Below are positions 5,568 through 28,834 of a DNA stretch of 64,000 nt, piece after piece (the first letter of the stretch is position 1; each line of letters opens with the position of its first letter). A model generated the notes under the pieces. That model was not told the DNA's origin, did no database searches, and saw only the letters and a program-made list of their open reading frames with translations. Source of the stretch: Alicyclobacillus pomorum DSM 14955 (GTDB lineage: Bacteria > Bacillota > Bacilli > Alicyclobacillales > Alicyclobacillaceae). Made by a program: the position numbers and the translations under genes. Where the stretch lies: the NCBI RefSeq assembly GCF_000472905.1, contig NZ_AXAR01000001.1:124001-188000 (forward strand). The letters run 5' to 3'.

Positions 5568-5960
5568 ATGAAAGCGTCAGGCATCCTTCATGGAGATATC
5601 TCCGAGCTCGTTGCGCGATTGGGCCATGGGGATGAAATCGTGATTTCCGACTACGGACTTCCTGTTCCGCCAGGGGTTACGCAAATTGACCTTGCGGTGA
5701 AGACGGGGGTGCCATCGTTTCTCGACGTCCTGGAAACGGTGCTGTCCGAGTTGGTCGTAGAACACTGGGTGGTGGCCACGGAGTTACATGATACTCATCC
5801 AGACTTCCTTGCAAAGATCCAGCACCTGTTGAAACCGTTTCCGGAATTCCTGGCTCATGAGGATTTTAAGAAGCGATGTAAACAGGCAAAGGCCATCATT
5901 CGAACAGGTGAGTGGACGCCGTACGCCAATGTCATCTTGCGAGCAGGCGTCCCATTCTAG
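5568..5960 (+). CDS. rbsD: D-ribose pyranase
   Basis: 130-aa RbsD/FucU-family mutarotase that interconverts pyranose and furanose forms of ribose so that ribokinase can use it. Family features are the start MKASGILHGDISELVARLGHGDEIVISD (split here as MKASGILHGD and LGHGDEIVISD), the VPPGV loop and the C-terminal RTGEWTPYANVIL. The length is typical (about 130 aa). AGGGGG precedes ATG 5568 by about 10 nt. It is second in the operon, ahead of the ABC transporter genes. Confidence 0.95.
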   Translation: MKASGILHGDISELVARLGHGDEIVISDYGLPVPPGVTQIDLAVKTGVPSFLDVLETVLSELVVEHWVVATELHDTHPDFLAKIQHLLKPFPEFLAHEDFKKRCKQAKAIIRTGEWTPYANVILRAGVPF

Positions 5961-5977
5961 GACTGGGGGGTGAACCT

Positions 5978-7468
5978 GTGAGTGTGCTGGAGATGAAGGG
6001 GATTTCAAAATCGTTTGGCACGGTAAAGGTTCTGCAGGGCGTGGACCTGCGGCTTGAATCCGGGGAGGTGCTAGCCCTTCTTGGAGAGAACGGTGCCGGG
6101 AAATCCACTCTGATGAAGATCTTAACCGGAGTGTATGCTGCAGATGACGGACAAATTTTCATCGACGGAGAGCCTGTTCACATTCATCGCATTCAGGACA
6201 GTCGAGCGCTGGGCATCGAAATCATCCATCAGGAGTTGAGCCTCTTTCAAAATCTGTCTATCGCAGAGAATTTCCTGATTGGGCATGAAGAGAAGTATCG
6301 AAACACATTTGGTCTGGTGGACTACAAAAAGCTTCACCGTGAAGTGGCAGACGCCCTGCGGCGGGTAGGCTTGCAGCGTCCCACTTCGACGCTCGTTGGC
6401 AGTTTGGGCGTTGGTGAGCAGCAGCTGGTGGAAATCTCGCGTGCCCTCCAGTCCAATGTGCGGTTTCTTATCATGGACGAGCCTACCGCCGCATTGACGG
6501 AGGTCGAAACCGAACGCCTGTTTGAACTGATTCGACAGCTGCGCTCAAACGGTGTAGGCATCATCTACATCTCGCACCGGATGGAAGAGCTGTACCAAAT
6601 TGCTGACAAAGTTGAGATCTTACGGGATGGACAGTTTATCGGCACACGGGTGATGGCGGAGGCACAGGAGCGCGAGCTGATCAGCATGATGGTCGGCCGC
6701 GATGTCGATAATCGTTATCCGCGGGTCCCCACTACGCCTGGGGAAACGCTGCTTGAAGTGAAAGGGCTTACGACGCAATACGTTCGGGACATCAACCTGA
6801 CTGTCCGCGCTGGAGAGGTCGTTGGACTCGGCGGGCTCATGGGGGCCGGGCGGACCGAAGTTGCGCGGGCGCTGATGGGAATCGACAAAGTTACGCGTGG
6901 TGAGATTGTCTTCAAAGGAAAGCCACGGCGCTTTACATCTCCTCGTGAGGCTATTCGGGAAGGAATGGTATTTCTTACGGAGGATAGAAAAAGCGAAGGG
7001 CTCATTCTTCCGTTCAGCGTGCGGGAAAACCTGGCGCTGTCCACACTGGACCAGCGAAAACGCGCCGGACTGGTGAACCGACGTCTGGAAAAGGTGTTTG
7101 CGAGTGACATGGTCAAGCGGCTGCGTATTAAGGTGGCGAATCCCGAGCAAAGCGTTGGCAGCTTAAGTGGTGGCAACCAGCAAAAAGTCGTTCTTGGGAA
7201 GTGGCTTGCACATAATCCTGACCTGCTGATTCTAGATGAACCCACAAGAGGTGTCGACGTTGGGGCGAAGCAGGAAATATACCAACTGATCAATGAGATG
7301 ACCGCAAGCGGCAAAGCCATTCTCATGATTTCCTCAGACTTGCCGGAGCTGCTGGGCATGTGCGACAGAGTGTACGTGATGTTCCAGGGCACCACGCAGG
7401 GTGAGGTGCGGGGAAGTGCCATGAACCAAGAGGACTTCATGACGCTGGCAACAGGAGGGGAGTTGTGA
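5978..7468 (+). CDS. rbsA: Ribose import ATP-binding protein RbsA
   Basis: 496-aa tandem ABC ATPase of the sugar (CUT2) class that energises RbsC. The first cassette has Walker A GENGAGKST, a short signature region (LGVGEQQLVEI) and Walker B LIMDEPTAAL. The second cassette has a degenerate Walker A (GLMGAGRTE) and signature LSGGNQQKVVLGKWL with LILDEPTRGVD, the usual RbsA pattern of one weak site. The open frame could start at 5912, but GTG 5978 follows GGGGGG with good spacing and gives the normal N-terminus (SVLEMKGISKSFG). Its stop overlaps the start of rbsC. Confidence 0.95.
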   Translation: MSVLEMKGISKSFGTVKVLQGVDLRLESGEVLALLGENGAGKSTLMKILTGVYAADDGQIFIDGEPVHIHRIQDSRALGIEIIHQELSLFQNLSIAENFLIGHEEKYRNTFGLVDYKKLHREVADALRRVGLQRPTSTLVGSLGVGEQQLVEISRALQSNVRFLIMDEPTAALTEVETERLFELIRQLRSNGVGIIYISHRMEELYQIADKVEILRDGQFIGTRVMAEAQERELISMMVGRDVDNRYPRVPTTPGETLLEVKGLTTQYVRDINLTVRAGEVVGLGGLMGAGRTEVARALMGIDKVTRGEIVFKGKPRRFTSPREAIREGMVFLTEDRKSEGLILPFSVRENLALSTLDQRKRAGLVNRRLEKVFASDMVKRLRIKVANPEQSVGSLSGGNQQKVVLGKWLAHNPDLLILDEPTRGVDVGAKQEIYQLINEMTASGKAILMISSDLPELLGMCDRVYVMFQGTTQGEVRGSAMNQEDFMTLATGGEL

Positions 7469-8400
7469 TGGGGGATTTCATCCGTCGCTATCATTTAGGA
7501 CCACTGATTGGATTTTTACTGCTATTCATCATTCTTTCAGTTGTATCGCCGCAGTTTATGACCTTCGGCAACCTCCGCAACGTGGCACTGCAGACTTCGG
7601 TGAACATGCTGTTGGCCGTCGGCATGACATTCGTCATCTTGACTTCTGGAATTGACTTGTCAGTCGGCTCCACGTTAGCGATGACAAGTTCGGTGGCAGC
7701 TGGATTGATGGTTACACATGTGCCCATCTGGATTGCTGTGGTGGTCGCTTTGGCCATTGGGCTGCTGGCCGGATTGTTCAATGGGATTTTTGTTGCCTAC
7801 GCCGGTTTGGCGCCGTTTATTGTCACACTGGGAACGATGACGTTGTTCCGGGGGATTACAGAGATTTACACGCACGGAACACCCATTTTCAATCTCCCGG
7901 ACAGTTTTGCTTGGTTGGGTACGGCTCAGCTTGCCGGGATTCCGGTCCCTGTCATCCTCACGGTGATCGTCTTGATTGTCGCCTGGGTGATTCTGGCGAA
8001 GTCCGTTCCCGGTCGTCGCATTTACGCGGTGGGCGGAAATGAACAGGTCGCATACCTCGCAGGGGTGCGCGTCAAAAAGTACTTATTGCTCGTGTACATG
8101 GTCAGCGGCTTTTTGGCGGCCGTCGCTGGCCTGGTGTTAACTTCGCGCCTAGGCTCAGCCGAACCGACAGCGGGTACTGGCTACGAACTGGATGCGATTA
8201 CTGCCGTTGTCCTGGGTGGTACAAGTCTGTTCGGTGGTGAAGGGACACTGGTGGGGACCATCATTGGTGCAGCCATCTTAGGTGTCATTGACAACGGCCT
8301 CAACATCCTGAATGTGAACTCGTTTTGGCAGGACGCCGTCCGAGGCGCCATCATCCTCGTGGCGATTCTGTTGGACCGGAAAAAGACGACAACGATATAA
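7468..8400 (+). CDS. rbsC: Ribose ABC transporter permease RbsC
   Basis: About 310-aa integral membrane permease of the CUT2 family, with the typical alternation of hydrophobic helices. It contains the conserved GIDLSVGSTLAM motif (residues about 62-73) and the C-terminal LGGTSLFGGEGTLVGT loop that faces the ATPase. AGGAGGGG at 7453-7460 serves either GTG 7465 or ATG 7468; ATG 7468 is chosen for spacing (9 nt) and shares its A with the rbsA stop TGA. It works with RbsA and the lipoprotein RbsB. Confidence 0.94.
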   Translation: MGDFIRRYHLGPLIGFLLLFIILSVVSPQFMTFGNLRNVALQTSVNMLLAVGMTFVILTSGIDLSVGSTLAMTSSVAAGLMVTHVPIWIAVVVALAIGLLAGLFNGIFVAYAGLAPFIVTLGTMTLFRGITEIYTHGTPIFNLPDSFAWLGTAQLAGIPVPVILTVIVLIVAWVILAKSVPGRRIYAVGGNEQVAYLAGVRVKKYLLLVYMVSGFLAAVAGLVLTSRLGSAEPTAGTGYELDAITAVVLGGTSLFGGEGTLVGTIIGAAILGVIDNGLNILNVNSFWQDAVRGAIILVAILLDRKKTTTI

Positions 8401-8497
8401 AACCATGGGTTGTGGGGTTTGCAGACGCGTGCTCCTAAAACTCGCGATTCTGCTCAAAATACAAAGGATTTGTATATGAAGAAGGGAGTCATTTGAG

Positions 8498-9463
8498 ATG
8501 AACAAATGGAAAGTCGCAGTAGCTTCTGTACTCGCCGTTGGCGTATTGGCAGGTTGCGGGACGAGTGGAAACACATCAAGTGTCAACACGAGTAGCGGAA
8601 ATTCGACGGGTGGATCTAGCAGTGGAAACGTGACGATTGGGTTTGCCGTGTCCACCTTGAACAATCCGTTCTTCGTTGCCATGCGCGATGGTGTCCAACA
8701 AGAAGCGCAAAGGAAAGGCGTGAAGGTCGTTGTGATGAATGGCAACAACGATCCGTCCACTCAACTCAACCAGGTTCAGGACCTCATTCAGCAGAAGGTC
8801 AGTGCCATTCTGCTGAATCCGACGGACAGTGAAGGGTTGGCACAAGCGGTGAAGATGGCCAACGATGCACACATTCCCGTGATTACACTGGATCGGAGTG
8901 TATCCAGTGGTAAAGTCTCCACATTTATCGCATCGGACAGTGTGCAGGCTGGTAAGATGGCGGCCGACGAAATCATCAAAGCGCTCGGCGGCAAGGGTCA
9001 AGTCGTGGAGTTGCAGGGCGTCATCGGTACCTCGGCGGAACGAGACAGAGAAAAGGGATTTGATGAAGAAATCAAGACCGCGCCGAACATCCAAGTTGTG
9101 GCGAAGCAAGCGGCAGATTTTGACCGCAGCAAGGCACTGAACGTGATGCAGAACCTCTTGCAGGCACATCCAAACGTTCAGGGCGTGTTCGCTCAGAACG
9201 ATGAAATGGCACTCGGAGCTCTGGCAGCCGCCCAACAGGCGAACAAATCGGGTATCAAAATTGTGGGCATCGACGGAGAATCAGAAGCAGTGAACGACGT
9301 CAACAAGGGCCTGCTGTTTGCTGACATTGCGCAACAGCCAAAGAGCGAAGGGGCGCTTGGCGTCGATTACGCCCTGAAGGTCATCGCAGGATCTAGTGTG
9401 CCGGCGACTGTGCCGTCTCCGCTGCACCTCGTTGAGAAGGGCTCCACATTTAAGGGATTCTAA
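8498..9463 (+). CDS. rbsB: D-ribose-binding lipoprotein RbsB
   Basis: 321-aa solute-binding protein for the ribose importer. It has a lipoprotein signal peptide with lipobox LAGC (Cys20), a Ser/Gly/Asn-rich linker (about 21-45), and the type I periplasmic-binding fold (VTIGFAVSTLNNPFF; LNPTDSEGLA; VFAQNDEMALGALAA). It lies 97 nt after rbsC and has GAAGGGAG upstream of ATG 8498. The intergenic stretch shows no clear terminator, so it is probably part of the operon. The protein would be anchored to the outer face of the membrane. Confidence 0.94.
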   Translation: MNKWKVAVASVLAVGVLAGCGTSGNTSSVNTSSGNSTGGSSSGNVTIGFAVSTLNNPFFVAMRDGVQQEAQRKGVKVVVMNGNNDPSTQLNQVQDLIQQKVSAILLNPTDSEGLAQAVKMANDAHIPVITLDRSVSSGKVSTFIASDSVQAGKMAADEIIKALGGKGQVVELQGVIGTSAERDREKGFDEEIKTAPNIQVVAKQAADFDRSKALNVMQNLLQAHPNVQGVFAQNDEMALGALAAAQQANKSGIKIVGIDGESEAVNDVNKGLLFADIAQQPKSEGALGVDYALKVIAGSSVPATVPSPLHLVEKGSTFKGF

Positions 9464-9517
9464 TCCCATGGGGTCCGATGTGGCACATCCGCCAATCGGT
9501 GAAGGGAGGGCCAAGGG

Positions 9518-10534
9518 ATGACGTGCACGCTGGTGGCGGGAAGTATCAATATGGATGTGGTGAACCGTGTGCGTGTTCACCCGAAGCCAGGTGAAACGGT
9601 TCCAGGCCTCGGCTTATCGTATAACCCGGGCGGGAAAGGTGCAAACCAGGCTGTGGCTGTGGCTCGCAATGGTGGTACGGTCCGCATGTTGGCGGCAGTT
9701 GGTGACGACACGTTTTCCACGACGCTGTTGAGCCATCTCGCGACGGAGGGGATTGACACCTCCTGGATTGAACGGGTTTCCGGCCCGGCCGGGATGGCGT
9801 TCATCACGGTGGACGGTGACGGTGAAAATACCATCATTGTCGAGGGAGGGGCCAATGCTCAACTCTCTGTTGCCCACGTAGACGCGGCAGTACGTGCGGG
9901 CGTCCTCGATGGGGTCGGCACGCTGGTGGTGCAGAACGAGGTGCCTTCTACCGTGACATTGCACGTGATGCAGGTGGCGAAAAAGGCCGGGGCGTGGGTG
10001 GTTTTTAATCCTGCTCCCGTCACTGGTGTCACGTTGAAGTGGCTCCGGGACGTGGACATTGTTGTGGTCAATGAAACGGAAGCCGAAGCGTTATCCGGTG
10101 TTTCATATGCTGACGCGCAAGACGTCTTGGACTGGGTGGCACGTGTCATCCAAGTATTTCTCGACGCCGGCGCTCAGTCTGCTGTGGTCACCTTGGGCGG
10201 CCAAGGATCCGTATACGGGACGCGTGTCTCGCAATGGGCGGAAGGCGTATCTGACCGTTCCGTCAGGGTTGGGCAGGAGACCTTCAAAAGAAACGGGCTA
10301 TGCCTTGTGAGACAGCCGGCCTTTTCAGTACCGGTCGTGGATACGACGGCCGCAGGGGACACATTTGTAGGAGCCTTGACGGCTGAGCATTCAAGGACCG
10401 GGGATATTGCGTGGTCACTGCAGTATGCGTCGGCTGCAGCAGCACTGGCTGTCACGAAGTCTGGCGCGCAGACGTCTGTACCCACCAAGGAAGAGGTCTT
10501 GGCATTTTTGGACACACGGTGTAAATCCCAGTGA
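9518..10534 (+). CDS. rbsK: Ribokinase
   Basis: 338-aa PfkB-family kinase making ribose 5-phosphate. It shows the N-terminal signature (GSINMDVVNRV; YNPGGKGANQAVAVARNGG), the ATP-site NETEAEAL and the catalytic DTTAAGDTFVGAL, in which the second Asp is the base. It is some 25-30 residues longer than usual ribokinases; the extra segment lies between VTLGGQGS and the DTTAAGD motif. ATG 9518 has GAAGGGAGGG 7 nt upstream. It is the last gene of the rbs operon, followed by a strong terminator. In B. subtilis rbsK is second; here it is distal. Confidence 0.93.
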   Translation: MTCTLVAGSINMDVVNRVRVHPKPGETVPGLGLSYNPGGKGANQAVAVARNGGTVRMLAAVGDDTFSTTLLSHLATEGIDTSWIERVSGPAGMAFITVDGDGENTIIVEGGANAQLSVAHVDAAVRAGVLDGVGTLVVQNEVPSTVTLHVMQVAKKAGAWVVFNPAPVTGVTLKWLRDVDIVVVNETEAEALSGVSYADAQDVLDWVARVIQVFLDAGAQSAVVTLGGQGSVYGTRVSQWAEGVSDRSVRVGQETFKRNGLCLVRQPAFSVPVVDTTAAGDTFVGALTAEHSRTGDIAWSLQYASAAAALAVTKSGAQTSVPTKEEVLAFLDTRCKSQ

Positions 10535-11787: not shown

Positions 11788-12498
11788 TTACGACAAGCTC
11801 AGCATTTCGTCGTGCAGGCGGGCGTACATCCGTGCCTCTGATTTTGCGATTTGCGCACCGACCGAATACATGGTGTCCAAGTCCTTCGGCTCGGTGAACT
11901 GAACGAGAATGTCTTTGCAAAGCTGATAGTGGTGCGGTTCGTGTTCGTCCGCGTGAACCTCCCAGAACAGAAGGTTGAGCGGCCGCTCTTGATAGGCTGG
12001 ATGCTTCAGCCCATCGGCAATTGCACCCATGACGGTCCCTGCAAACATTTCTGAGCCCAGCCCGACCGCCGCCATGGCCTCAAGTGGCGTTGCCGACCGG
12101 AAAAAGTCAATGAACGTTTGTATCGCGTCGGATACGGCTGAAGACATCGGTTCGCGCGGCATGCCGTTGCCGTCCAATTCGACGTCTGGATACACGGACA
12201 ACAGGAAGGTCTTATACAATTGCTCGTGAGACTTGCCAGGTGCGCCTCGTCCCGCCTCGTCCCATAGGTTATCTGCCAATGGGACCCACCACGTGTCCAG
12301 CGGCGCCATCGCAGAGATGGCTGCGCCCAGCACGCGTGGGAAGTGTCGGCTGTAATACGAATATTGCAGTGCAAAATACTGAATCTGCCGCATTGTGTAG
12401 CGTCCATTGCGCAGATGGGTGAGAAACGCCGCGTTGATAAATTCCTCGTCTACAAGTTTGTTCATGGCTTCTTCCACTTCAACGTACGTCTGAAACAT
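11788..12498 (-). CDS. Haem-oxygenase-fold iron-containing redox enzyme (TenA/PqqC/CADD-like)
   Basis: 236-aa all-helical protein. Its residues fit the haem-oxygenase-like dimetal enzyme pattern: Glu and His candidates in NLWDEAGRG, GLGSEMFAG and the C-terminal WEVHADEHEPHHYQL. Members include PqqC, the Chlamydia CADD protein and several dinuclear iron oxygenases; the reaction here is unknown. The open frame starts at 12537, but GAGGAGGAAAACG just precedes ATG 12498, which gives MFQTYVEVEEAMNKL. No thiamine genes are nearby, which argues against a TenA role. It is a single gene transcribed toward the EamA gene. Confidence 0.7.
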   Translation of the reverse strand: MFQTYVEVEEAMNKLVDEEFINAAFLTHLRNGRYTMRQIQYFALQYSYYSRHFPRVLGAAISAMAPLDTWWVPLADNLWDEAGRGAPGKSHEQLYKTFLLSVYPDVELDGNGMPREPMSSAVSDAIQTFIDFFRSATPLEAMAAVGLGSEMFAGTVMGAIADGLKHPAYQERPLNLLFWEVHADEHEPHHYQLCKDILVQFTEPKDLDTMYSVGAQIAKSEARMYARLHDEMLSLS

Positions 12499-12682
12499 CG
12501 TTTTCCTCCTCGCTTGCTTGGTCTGAGTCTCCCTCATCTTACTTTCATCATGGATAGTCTACCAAACGGCGCATCCACATTTTTTCCACATCATCTACAC
12601 AACGCCTTCAAAACGGTGTGAGAGAATGAGTAGTAGAAATGATAGAATCTGTTCATAGAATCCACCGTAAGGAGGCCGGGTT

Positions 12683-13732
12683 ATGAGAAAGTTGACCACT
12701 CCCCAAGCTGCAGCACTGTTGCTGTGCATGGGCATAGGCGGGTATGCGTTTCTGCACGGACTTCCAACCACACCGGTCAATGATAACCAGACATCGACAG
12801 AATATAAGTTGTCTACAAACCATTGGCATAGACAAGTCGATGTCCAACCAGTACCGACATCCACCGCTTCGCTCACTCCGACGCGAAGGACTGTGCCACA
12901 GTCTTCGGCGACGCCAGTGCAAGACGTCAGCCTGACCGTACCGCAAGAAACCCAGGGCTCTGGAAACTGGGCGGGCTACATCGTGTCGCCCAAGTCGTCC
13001 AGTCACAGATATACCAGCGTGTCTGGCAGCTGGACCGTACCTAACATTACGGGCAACGCGCAATCGATTGCCGCGCAGTGGATAGGTCTCGGAGGTGTGT
13101 CCTCCACGGACTTGTTGCAAATGGGAACGCTGGAGCAGTTTGAGAACGGTCGACCTGTCGCAGAAGTCTTCTGGGAGAAGTTGCCCGCTGCCGCGCAGGA
13201 AGTGATGACGGTGCCGTTTGGATCGACCATACATGCAAGTATATCAAAAGCGTCCGGGTCAACTTGGAATATTGCGTTTACTGCGCACACGCCGGCTGGG
13301 CAAACGCTGAGCAAGACGATTCCAGTCAAGTTGGACGCGACGTACGCGAAGAACATCGGAACGTCCGCGGAGTGGATCAACGAAGATCCCTCGGACGACA
13401 ATGGCAACCTGTACCCGCTGGCGAATACCGGAGAAGTCCAATTTAACTCGACTTTAGTAGACGGACATGCGCTGAACAATGCTGAGAATGAGGTTCAGCC
13501 GGTGGCTCTGGTATCGGATACTGGCCGCGTACTGATGGTTCCTTCTGCCTTAGCGTCAAATGGTGAGTCGTTCACCACAGCCACTGTGAGTACGAATACC
13601 GGGTACGGTCGCAATCGCATGTCACACCGGGCTTGGGGACATTGGCAAGCCCAGGGCTGGGGCAATGACACCGATTACAGTGTTGGGTACTCGTACGTGG
13701 CCCGTGAGGGTTTTGGTTCTCACTGGCGATAA
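12683..13732 (+). CDS. Secreted G1-family (eqolisin) glutamic acid protease precursor
   Basis: 349-aa secreted endopeptidase. It has a signal peptide (about 1-24, MRKLTTPQAAALLLCMGIGG) and a Thr/Pro/Ser-rich propeptide to about residue 90. The catalytic domain then begins with GSGNWAGYIV, matching the SNWGGAI start of mature scytalidoglutamic peptidase. By alignment the catalytic pair is Gln146 (LLQMG) and Glu230 (SAEWINED). Eqolisins work at low pH and resist pepstatin; bacterial members are known from Alicyclobacillus. AAGGAGG lies 9 nt before ATG 12683. It is a single gene, followed by a hairpin at 13796. It supports an acidic habitat for the host. Confidence 0.9.
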   Translation: MRKLTTPQAAALLLCMGIGGYAFLHGLPTTPVNDNQTSTEYKLSTNHWHRQVDVQPVPTSTASLTPTRRTVPQSSATPVQDVSLTVPQETQGSGNWAGYIVSPKSSSHRYTSVSGSWTVPNITGNAQSIAAQWIGLGGVSSTDLLQMGTLEQFENGRPVAEVFWEKLPAAAQEVMTVPFGSTIHASISKASGSTWNIAFTAHTPAGQTLSKTIPVKLDATYAKNIGTSAEWINEDPSDDNGNLYPLANTGEVQFNSTLVDGHALNNAENEVQPVALVSDTGRVLMVPSALASNGESFTTATVSTNTGYGRNRMSHRAWGHWQAQGWGNDTDYSVGYSYVAREGFGSHWR

Positions 13733-13795: not shown

Positions 13796-13826
13796 GAACC
13801 ACCAGTATTGGTGGTTCGTTTGTCTT
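13796..13826 (+). terminator. Probable terminator after the G1 protease gene
   Basis: GAACCACCA (13796-13804) pairs with TGGTGGTTC (13809-13817), 9 bp with loop GTAT, followed by a T-rich but interrupted tail (GTTTGTCTTTG). Confidence 0.6.
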
Positions 13827-27087: not shown

Positions 27088-28668
27088 TTACAGTTCAATG
27101 GACCGGACTTGCACAAGATCTGGGATTTGGCGGACGCGTTCCACAATATCGGCCGGAATCGCTTTGTCGACACTCAGCAGCATGACCGCGTCGCCACCCT
27201 GTTCGTGCCGACCCACTTGCATCCCCGCAATATTGATAGCGGCATCGCCAATCAGCGTGCCAATCTTGCCAATCATACCAGGTTTGTCGCGGTGCAGGGT
27301 GTACAGCAGGTTGCCTTCTGGGGCGACGTCAATTCGAAATCCGTCAATTTCCACAATTTTGGGGCCATAGCCGTTGTACAGGGTACCGGAGACGGTATGC
27401 TGTTCTTCCTTCGTTGCGGCAGTGACGGAAATCATGTTGGTGAAGACTTTGCTGGATTGCCGCACTTCCCGCACATGAATGCCTTTCTCCTTAGCCACGA
27501 CGAGGGCATTGATGAAGTTCACTTCGTCCGCGTACGTCTGTGCGAGCAAGCCCTTGAGGACGGTGCGTGTCAGCAAGGACACGTCGTGGTTCGCAATGTC
27601 CCCGGAATACGTGATGTCCACCTGTACACTTGGATGGAGCAGGAGCTGACCGACGAATTTGCCCAGTTTTTCACCAAGGGTCAGGTAGGGTTGAAGATTG
27701 CGCTTTTGTTCCTCCGTCATGGACGGCAGGTTCACCGCATTGCGGAAAGGCTTGTCAGTAAGAATGTTCACAACTTCCTCTGCGACGGCAACGGCCACCA
27801 GAGATTGTGCTTCTACCGTGGACGCACCGAGGTGGGGAGTCAGGATGACGTTCTCACATGCTCGCAACGGGTGATCCGCAGGCAACGGCTCTTGTTCAAA
27901 CACATCCAGGGCGGCACCTGCGACCTTGCCGATTTGCAGTGCCTCCACAAGCGCTTTTTCGTCGATGATGCCACCGCGCGCGCAGTTGATAATGCGTACT
28001 CCGGGCTTCATCTTGTCGAACGCGTTGACGTCGAGGAGGTGGTGTGTCTCCTTCAGCAGCGGCGTATGGACCGTAATAAAGTCAGCATTGGCAATCGCTT
28101 CATCGAGGGTCACGCGTTGAATGCCGAGAGACTCTGCACGTTCGTCGGTGAGGTATGGATCGTACCCGAGGACGTTCATCTGAAAGGCGAGCGCACGCTT
28201 TGCTACCTCAGTGCCAATGCGCCCCATACCAACGACGGCCAGCGTTTTGCCGCGGAGCTCCACGCCCACAAAGCGTCCCCGAGACCATTTGCCGTCGCAG
28301 ACGGAAACGTACGCCTGTGGAATGTGCCGTGCTAGAGCCAGCAACATGGCGAGTGTGTGTTCGGCTGCCGCAATTGTGTTTCCGTCCGGCGCGTTCACCA
28401 CAACCACGCCTCGGCGCGTCGCAGCGTTCACATCAATGTTGTCAACGCCGACACCCGCCCTGCCGATGGCTCTCAGCTTGGCTCCGGCCGCAATGACTCT
28501 GTCTGTGACCTGGGTCTGGGAGCGGACGAGGAGGGCGTCTGCATCCGCGATTTCCTGCAGCAGCTCGGATTCGGAGAGTCCCGTCCGGACCACGATGTCG
28601 ATGTTTCCGAGACGACGTAGCACTTGCAGACCTTCTTCAGCGATTTCGTCCGTGACCAGGACTTTCAC
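27088..28668 (-). CDS. serA: D-3-phosphoglycerate dehydrogenase
   Basis: 526-aa long-form SerA, the first enzyme of serine synthesis. The NAD-binding motif VVGMGRIGTEVAKRA, catalytic NCARGGIIDE and TPHLGAST are followed by the intervening ASB domain and a C-terminal ACT domain (HRDKPGMIGKIGTLIGDAAI) that usually senses serine. The open frame reaches ATG 28761, but AAGGAGGAG lies directly before GTG 28668, where family members start (KVLVTDEIAEEGL). The 31-codon in-frame upstream extension overlaps structured leader RNA. Confidence 0.95.
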   Translation of the reverse strand: MKVLVTDEIAEEGLQVLRRLGNIDIVVRTGLSESELLQEIADADALLVRSQTQVTDRVIAAGAKLRAIGRAGVGVDNIDVNAATRRGVVVVNAPDGNTIAAAEHTLAMLLALARHIPQAYVSVCDGKWSRGRFVGVELRGKTLAVVGMGRIGTEVAKRALAFQMNVLGYDPYLTDERAESLGIQRVTLDEAIANADFITVHTPLLKETHHLLDVNAFDKMKPGVRIINCARGGIIDEKALVEALQIGKVAGAALDVFEQEPLPADHPLRACENVILTPHLGASTVEAQSLVAVAVAEEVVNILTDKPFRNAVNLPSMTEEQKRNLQPYLTLGEKLGKFVGQLLLHPSVQVDITYSGDIANHDVSLLTRTVLKGLLAQTYADEVNFINALVVAKEKGIHVREVRQSSKVFTNMISVTAATKEEQHTVSGTLYNGYGPKIVEIDGFRIDVAPEGNLLYTLHRDKPGMIGKIGTLIGDAAINIAGMQVGRHEQGGDAVMLLSVDKAIPADIVERVRQIPDLVQVRSIEL

Positions 28669-28680
28669 AGTGACTCCTCC

Positions 28681-28741
28681 TTTGTATACATAGCGCATGA
28701 TATACAAAACCTGGGCACGCTTCTGTAAAGAGGCGCCCAGG
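28681..28741 (-). promoter_or_regulatory. Structured serA leader: terminator-like hairpin and palindrome next to the ribosome binding site
   Basis: Reading the minus strand, CCTGGGC (28741-28735) pairs with GCCCAGG (28716-28710) and is followed at once by TTTT, like an intrinsic terminator. Immediately after comes TTTGTATA (28708-28701) and its inverse TATACAAA (28688-28681), enclosing a GCGC centre and abutting the AAGGAGGAG ribosome binding site. No T-box consensus (AGGGTGGNACCGCG) was found. A small upstream hairpin GAGGG/CCCTC lies at 28774-28787. Confidence 0.5.
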
Positions 28742-28834
28742 CGGTCGGCGAAATGTGTCATTTTGCACTCCCCGAGGGTACTCCCTCATGTTCCGCCAGT
28801 CGTGCAAAACGTAATGTTCTGAACGTTTGTAGTT

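Follow-up and report, generated by a model that had tools for sequence, protein, structure and literature searches.

The gene at positions 12683–13732 of the window (the whole 64,000-nucleotide stretch of Alicyclobacillus pomorum DSM 14955 DNA analyzed here) encodes a glutamic peptidase of family G1 (the eqolisins), and its product is a genuine bacterial member of that family, ordinary among its relatives. The reading frame, the family, the predicted fold, and the positions of the catalytic pair (Gln146 and Glu234) were established in this analysis. By analogy with characterized relatives, from which secretion, processing, a pH optimum in the acid range, resistance to pepstatin, and a role in nutrition are all extrapolated, the protein is very probably a secreted or surface-attached endopeptidase of a bacterial subfamily designated here type II; it would be acid-active, self-processing, and insensitive to pepstatin. 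Several points count against this reading: no assay of a type II enzyme was recognized in the literature consulted; type II proteins depart from the fungal scytalidoglutamic peptidase (SGP) and from the other bacterial proteins (type I) at two positions in the active-site region (SGP D43 and W67); the N-terminus has no clear cleavage site and could remain as an anchor; and NCBIfam models did not match the protein.

Gene and Genomic Context

The coordinates and strand of the first-pass annotation stand: the frame runs for 349 codons from an ATG at 12683 to a stop codon at 13730–13732. The following features were assigned.

12669–12675 (+): ribosome-binding-like AAGGAGG, 7 bases 5′ of the ATG, by direct sequence reading
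12683–13732 (+): type II eqolisin (family G1 peptidase) precursor, 349 amino acids; PF01828, E 1.3e-22; SGP in PDB, E 3.7e-4; AlphaFold2 model, VIA-align Z 24.4 to 2ifw
12707–12754 (+): hydrophobic N-terminal stretch, about residues 9–24, a candidate Sec signal or membrane-retained signal anchor; Kyte-Doolittle means in 15-residue windows reach 1.99
12761–12955 (+): putative variable pro-region, about residues 27–91; poorly conserved to about residue 86 in 39 type II rows, ten-residue pLDDT means below 70 to residue 80
12956–13588 (+): catalytic beta-sandwich domain, residues 92–302, aligned to SGP residues 2–206; pLDDT means 93–99 (residues 91–300)
13118–13120 (+): catalytic Gln146, aligned with SGP Q53; Gln in 84 of 86 rows, with two gaps
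13370–13372 (+): Glu230, the non-catalytic counterpart of SGP E132; among 86 rows, 82 have Glu here and 4 have Asp
13382–13384 (+): catalytic Glu234 (not Glu230), aligned with SGP E136 and the second Glu of the aspergilloglutamic peptidase motif; Glu in 86 of 86 rows
13589–13729 (+): Gly/Trp/His-rich C-terminal tail, residues 303–349, predicted disordered from 309 (pLDDT below 50 for 309–349)
13796–13817 (+): terminator-like hairpin, a 9-pair stem followed by a T-rich tail

The divergent upstream neighbor (11788–12537, −) encodes an iron-containing redox enzyme or TENA/PQQC-like protein (PF14518, 9.4e-14), which also weakly resembles a CADD folate protein, under that model's cut-off. Because this neighbor runs in the opposite direction and the downstream gene lies beyond the hairpin, the eqolisin gene is probably transcribed alone. 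The hairpin is weak on its own, since the region contains three terminator-like sites and shuffled sequence 1.5 on average; two sigma-70-like sites occur between 12400 and 14000 against a shuffled mean of 1.2, and no promoter is claimed.

Thirteen window genes (the eqolisin and 12 neighbors) were compared with 14 regions of relatives and three Clostridium loci, and no operon partner of the eqolisin emerged among them. A conserved neighborhood was rejected: only one compared region, from the same genus (L093), retains window neighbors. There, an EamA gene lies directly upstream of a type II eqolisin and a prephenate dehydratase gene downstream; the other ten window neighbors tested were not found in that 12 kb stretch. 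ABC ATPase matches in two further regions (L002 and L096), at 26–31% identity, probably belong to other transporters. In the window, a sugar-type ABC transporter ATPase, permease, and periplasmic binding protein are followed by a pfkB-family kinase (5912–10534), by arrangement a ribose-type uptake operon. A ZMP/ZTP riboswitch (RF01750, 72.1 bits) at 28728–28813 (−) overlaps the start region of an open reading frame on the same strand (27088–28761).

Family Assignment and Two Bacterial Subfamilies

The Pfam eqolisin model PF01828 matches residues 95–262 with 80.8 bits against a curated cut-off of 22.3, bearing out the earlier assignment to the G1 eqolisins; an NCBIfam scan of the protein gave no match. 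A profile built from 50 relatives found both chains of the fungal aspergilloglutamic peptidase (AGP) in PDB, the heavy chain at 5.5e-22 and the light chain at 4e-6. Relatives have up to 71% identity over 211 core residues, and no second eqolisin was found in the genome when it was searched by family model and by protein. In pairs with four relatives, dN was 0.26–0.29; dN/dS was undefined for three of the four, since synonymous sites are saturated, and dS was 2.9 for the fourth. Codon differences from these relatives fall mainly at the third position (130–145, versus 37–64 at positions one and two), a bias that shows coding constraint and nothing further.

Among the matches listed, 92 loci yielded 84 distinct proteins after removal of eight duplicates; these, the window protein, and SGP make up an alignment of 86 rows. 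The two proteins with a gap at Gln146 (L018 and L078, the latter truncated where its contig stops) entered neither tree and are counted in neither type. In the first tree (84 rows, with SGP as outgroup), 39 rows including the window protein grouped at 99 SH-aLRT; these constitute type II. Type I denotes the remaining 44 rows outside that set, in a part of the tree where the deepest forks did not resolve and the L039 branch is very long. A second tree of 81 rows, excluding SGP, L039, and L011 for long branches or partial sequence, separated 38 from 43 rows at 100/100; the program warned that bootstrap convergence was incomplete, and with type labels taken from the first tree this second tree is not an independent test. 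The window protein lay on the type II side in both trees.

The two types differ in several features of the alignment. The spacing from the catalytic Gln to the catalytic Glu is 88 residues in 30 of the 39 type II rows and 84 to 89 in the others; in type I, 42 rows out of 44 have a spacing of 81–85, and the remaining two are L039 (92) and L043 (88). All 39 type II proteins lack cysteine from the core onward and extend 96 to 212 residues beyond the catalytic Glu; in type I, 30 of 44 have 73 residues there. At the position of SGP D43, every type II row has Gly, and all but one of the 44 type I rows have Asp; at that of W67, Phe occurs in every type II row and Trp in every type I row. The window protein has Gly (G137) and Phe (F163) at these positions, carries TQGSGNW where type I has a GW-x-S-type start of the mature domain, and has the spacing of 88. 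Since prokaryotic eqolisin clades I and II, which may or may not be the types used here, have been described (PMC6154417), the split may already be known.

The one bacterial member named as characterized in the literature consulted is PepG1 of Alicyclobacillus sp. DSM 15716 (MEROPS G1; PMC3009609). It resembles the window protein in its G1 dyad, predicted beta-sandwich, lack of disulfides, pre-pro arrangement (putative in the window protein), and bacterial host, and its single cysteine lies in the signal peptide, as C15 of the window protein lies in the hydrophobic N-terminus. Its mature protein, however, starts NFGWSASNWxGY and has a spacing of 82 (PMC3009609); the window protein has TQGSGNWAGY and a spacing of 88. 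SASNW is present in eight type I rows, and PepG1, placed by its published N-terminus and residue numbers alone, fits type I; a PepG1-like placement was not what the trees gave for the window protein.

The three named relatives found are type II proteins of Clostridium ljungdahlii, C. ragsdalei, and C. thailandense (48–59% identity in best segments). The Clostridium proteins L002–L004 have 57–62% core identity to the window protein, with the same motifs and spacing; unlike it, they have a short C-terminal tail, and their hosts are anaerobes, of which the acetogens usually grow best near pH 6 (PMC11365079). The C. kluyveri eqolisin in Table 1 of PMC3009609 can be likened to type II by spacing only.

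Putative Export and Processing

A signal peptide and a propeptide had both been proposed for this protein. The short basic N-terminus and the hydrophobic stretch that follows it fit a Sec signal or a signal anchor, and by eye many type II relatives have a comparable stretch; no AxA-type cleavage site is seen by eye, so that the signal peptide stands only in part. The propeptide is likewise putative, its evidence being position: about 65 residues, variable among homologs, lie between the hydrophobic stretch and the catalytic domain. C15, within the hydrophobic stretch, is the only cysteine of the protein, and the core has none. The C-terminal tail also varies among relatives and is short in three Clostridium rows.

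It is possible, though rather unlikely, that the N-terminal stretch is an uncleaved anchor that would hold the enzyme at the cell surface until self-processing releases it. Besides the want of a clear AxA site after the stretch, this is favored by the long Gln-rich or Ser/Gly-rich linkers between stretch and domain in several type II relatives and by one relative (L015) in which cell wall binding repeats precede the eqolisin domain. On the other side, some type II relatives (e.g., L060 and L074) have cleavage sites that are acceptable by eye, and the signal peptide of PepG1 is predicted to be cleaved; the mature PepG1 enzyme was obtained in soluble form, albeit from a construct in which the signal peptide came from a subtilisin (PMC3009609). 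In L015 (1297–3072, −) the type II domain lies behind the repeats (PF04122, 3.4e-42); its PF01828 match (9.8e-21) was listed for the C-terminal piece scanned alone and was absent from the whole-protein scan.

Under the preferred reading of a secreted or surface-attached enzyme, the hydrophobic N-terminus would direct export by the Sec pathway and the pro-region would keep the precursor inactive. In acid, the precursor would then cut itself a short way ahead of the conserved SGNW stretch and release an enzyme of about 28 kDa; the computed mass of residues 91–349 is 27.7 kDa. AGP and SGP precursors self-activate in acid, and PepG1, whose purified form is 28 kDa, is active at pH 2–5 and insensitive to pepstatin (PMC3009609).

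Fold and Active Site

An AlphaFold2 model was computed with 50 alignment rows. Its mean pLDDT is 77, with ten-residue means of 93–99 over residues 91–300; values drop below 50 in most of residues 1–56 and throughout the final 41. Foldseek ranked SGP first (2ifr, 3.3e-13). VIA-align 2, run on Foldseek's top 1000, aligned core residues 92–302 with SGP (2ifw) at an rmsd of 2.3 Å over 192 residues, followed by AGP (Z 18.6), B. subtilis YncM (16.4), neprosin (16.2), and CPAVM1 (16.2). The two seven-stranded antiparallel sheets of the G1 fold are matched by the predicted model overall, not by a strand-by-strand sheet assignment.

SGP (also SCP-B; 1s2b, 2ifw, 2ifr) shares with the window protein the fold, the dyad (Q53/E136 in SGP), and E69, at 25% identity over 138 aligned positions. 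In contrast to SGP, the window protein lacks cysteine in its core, has D43 and W67 replaced by Gly and Phe, and carries a tail after the domain that is predicted to be disordered. AGP (1y43, 3trs), the best profile match in PDB, has the same fold and dyad; unlike the window protein it is fungal, with a two-chain mature form and a conserved disulfide (PMC3009609, Table 1). Neprosin, a glutamic prolyl endopeptidase (7zvb), has a similar sandwich and a catalytic Glu; it differs in being a plant protein with a Glu/Glu dyad and 9% identity (PMC9343461).

The general sandwich is shared, at lower scores, by glucanases, lectin-like proteins, and carbohydrate-binding proteins, and the equivalents of SGP D43 and W67 are replaced, so a non-peptidase homolog that retains the beta-sandwich, such as a binding protein, might be imagined. 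This is very improbable: both catalytic residues and the equivalent of SGP E69 (E165) are retained in all 39 type II rows, and SGP stands at Z 24.4, while below AGP the entries for YncM, neprosin, and CPAVM1 score 14.4–16.4 and the next 13.7. As for the replaced positions, simulation of D43A in SGP disrupted inhibitor binding, G43 was called acceptable, and W67F, found in 12 sequences, was judged functional (PMC6154417).

The catalytic pair is Q146/E234, as judged from the SGP alignment, the published Gln–Glu spacings, and the conservation of E234 in all 86 rows. In the first-pass annotation the pair was Q146/E230, to be confirmed by placing both at catalytic positions in a family alignment. 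Q146 is so placed, opposite SGP Q53; E230 is not, being opposite E132, with the catalytic E136 opposite E234. The assignment to the family is unaffected. Q146 and E234 are also among the 17 invariant columns of an alignment that comprised 50 of the 85 proteins.

Published precursor numbering gives Gln-to-Glu distances of 83 for SGP, 86 for AGP, 82 for PepG1, and 88 for Clostridium kluyveri (PMC3009609, Table 1), and E190 of the SCP-B precursor, less 54, is mature position 136 (PMC9343461). Counted along the SGP and AGP chains, these distances lead to the second Glu of the motif AE(F/W)I(I/V)ED and to no other, the first lying at 79 in SGP and 82 in AGP; in the window protein the second Glu (E234) lies 88 residues from Q146, the C. 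kluyveri spacing, and the first (E230) lies 84. Although E230 belongs to this conserved motif and 82 of the 86 rows have Glu there, a Q146/E230 dyad is scarcely credible, given that the catalytic Glu of both SGP and AGP aligns with E234, that the published spacings disagree with the first Glu, and that E230 gives way to Asp in four rows where E234 is always Glu. The natural Asp at the E132 position occurs in type II relatives L011, L016, L017, and L047, the first three of which are on long tree branches. The correction matters, as a mutant of E230 would probe the wrong residue.

With Q146/E234 as the dyad, Glu234 in the cleft of the sandwich would act as the general base that polarizes water, assisted by Gln146, as in the mechanism described for SGP (PMC9343461). 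The enzyme would cut extracellular proteins at acidic pH, insensitive to pepstatin, and may have a nutritional role.

Distribution and Habitat

Matches to PF01828 above the curated cut-off occur in 32 of 41 genomes of the family of the window's organism, in 52 of the 398 genomes sampled from its class (55 when counted at E ≤ 0.001), and in 11 of 398 sampled genomes of its phylum, its own genome included in each count; none occurs in 14 control genomes. Type II, counted by a bit-score gap (94 or more versus 80.1 or less), is present in about 30 of the 41 family genomes, in one (G419) as fragments only. The description of glutamic proteases as mostly fungal is thus dated, the more so as a bacterial member was characterized in 2010 (PMC3009609).

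The gene suggests an acid-active exoenzyme. The stronger statements that it directly attests secretion into an acidic environment, and that it is the best habitat marker in the window, go too far and were rejected as worded: type II genes with the same full dyad are present in C. ljungdahlii, C. ragsdalei, and C. thailandense. The first two are counted as acetogenic; acetogens usually have a growth optimum near pH 6, and C. kluyveri one near neutral (PMC11365079). An eqolisin alone is therefore a weak habitat marker and does not prove an acid niche. Two considerations count against the rejection: C. thailandense is an acetogen from peatland soil, which is possibly mildly acid, and acetogens lower the pH of the medium in which they grow.

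Ten type I eqolisins of one family (code f2: L007, L009, L010, L085, and L087–L092; genomes of 6.4–7.5 Mb) have a net positive catalytic core, with Lys+Arg at 11.4% versus Asp+Glu at 5.3% (mean of the ten rows), unlike the other five groups compared. Because of these cores, membership in family G1 does not imply a single acid-adapted composition.

The genome of A. pomorum also has four matches to the kumamolisin-type S53 activation domain (PF09286), on contigs C9, C24, and C36 (L107–L110), with a pair on C36 separated by about 8 kb. Among the 14 control genomes this family is present in one, that of the acidophile Sulfolobus acidocaldarius. Taken together, the eqolisin and the four kumamolisin-type pro-domains make an acid niche plausible.

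Type II as a Subfamily

Glutamic peptidases are a small catalytic class, with one bacterial member named as characterized in the literature consulted. No assay of a type II enzyme was recognized in the literature on eqolisins and glutamic peptidases, as represented mostly by titles and the opening lines of abstracts; the subfamily split, which assigns the window protein to type II, points to a cheap experiment.

As a tentative proposal, which we hold to be somewhat less likely than its opposite, type II may be a functionally distinct subfamily, tethered to the cell surface through disordered linkers and an anchor at the N-terminus; the Gly and Phe that replace D43 and W67 would alter its substrate cleft and thereby give it a specificity or pH range unlike those of PepG1 and the fungal enzymes. 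If this is true, the distinct type II would be the more widespread form in the bacterial family to which A. pomorum belongs, and one common to acetogenic clostridia.
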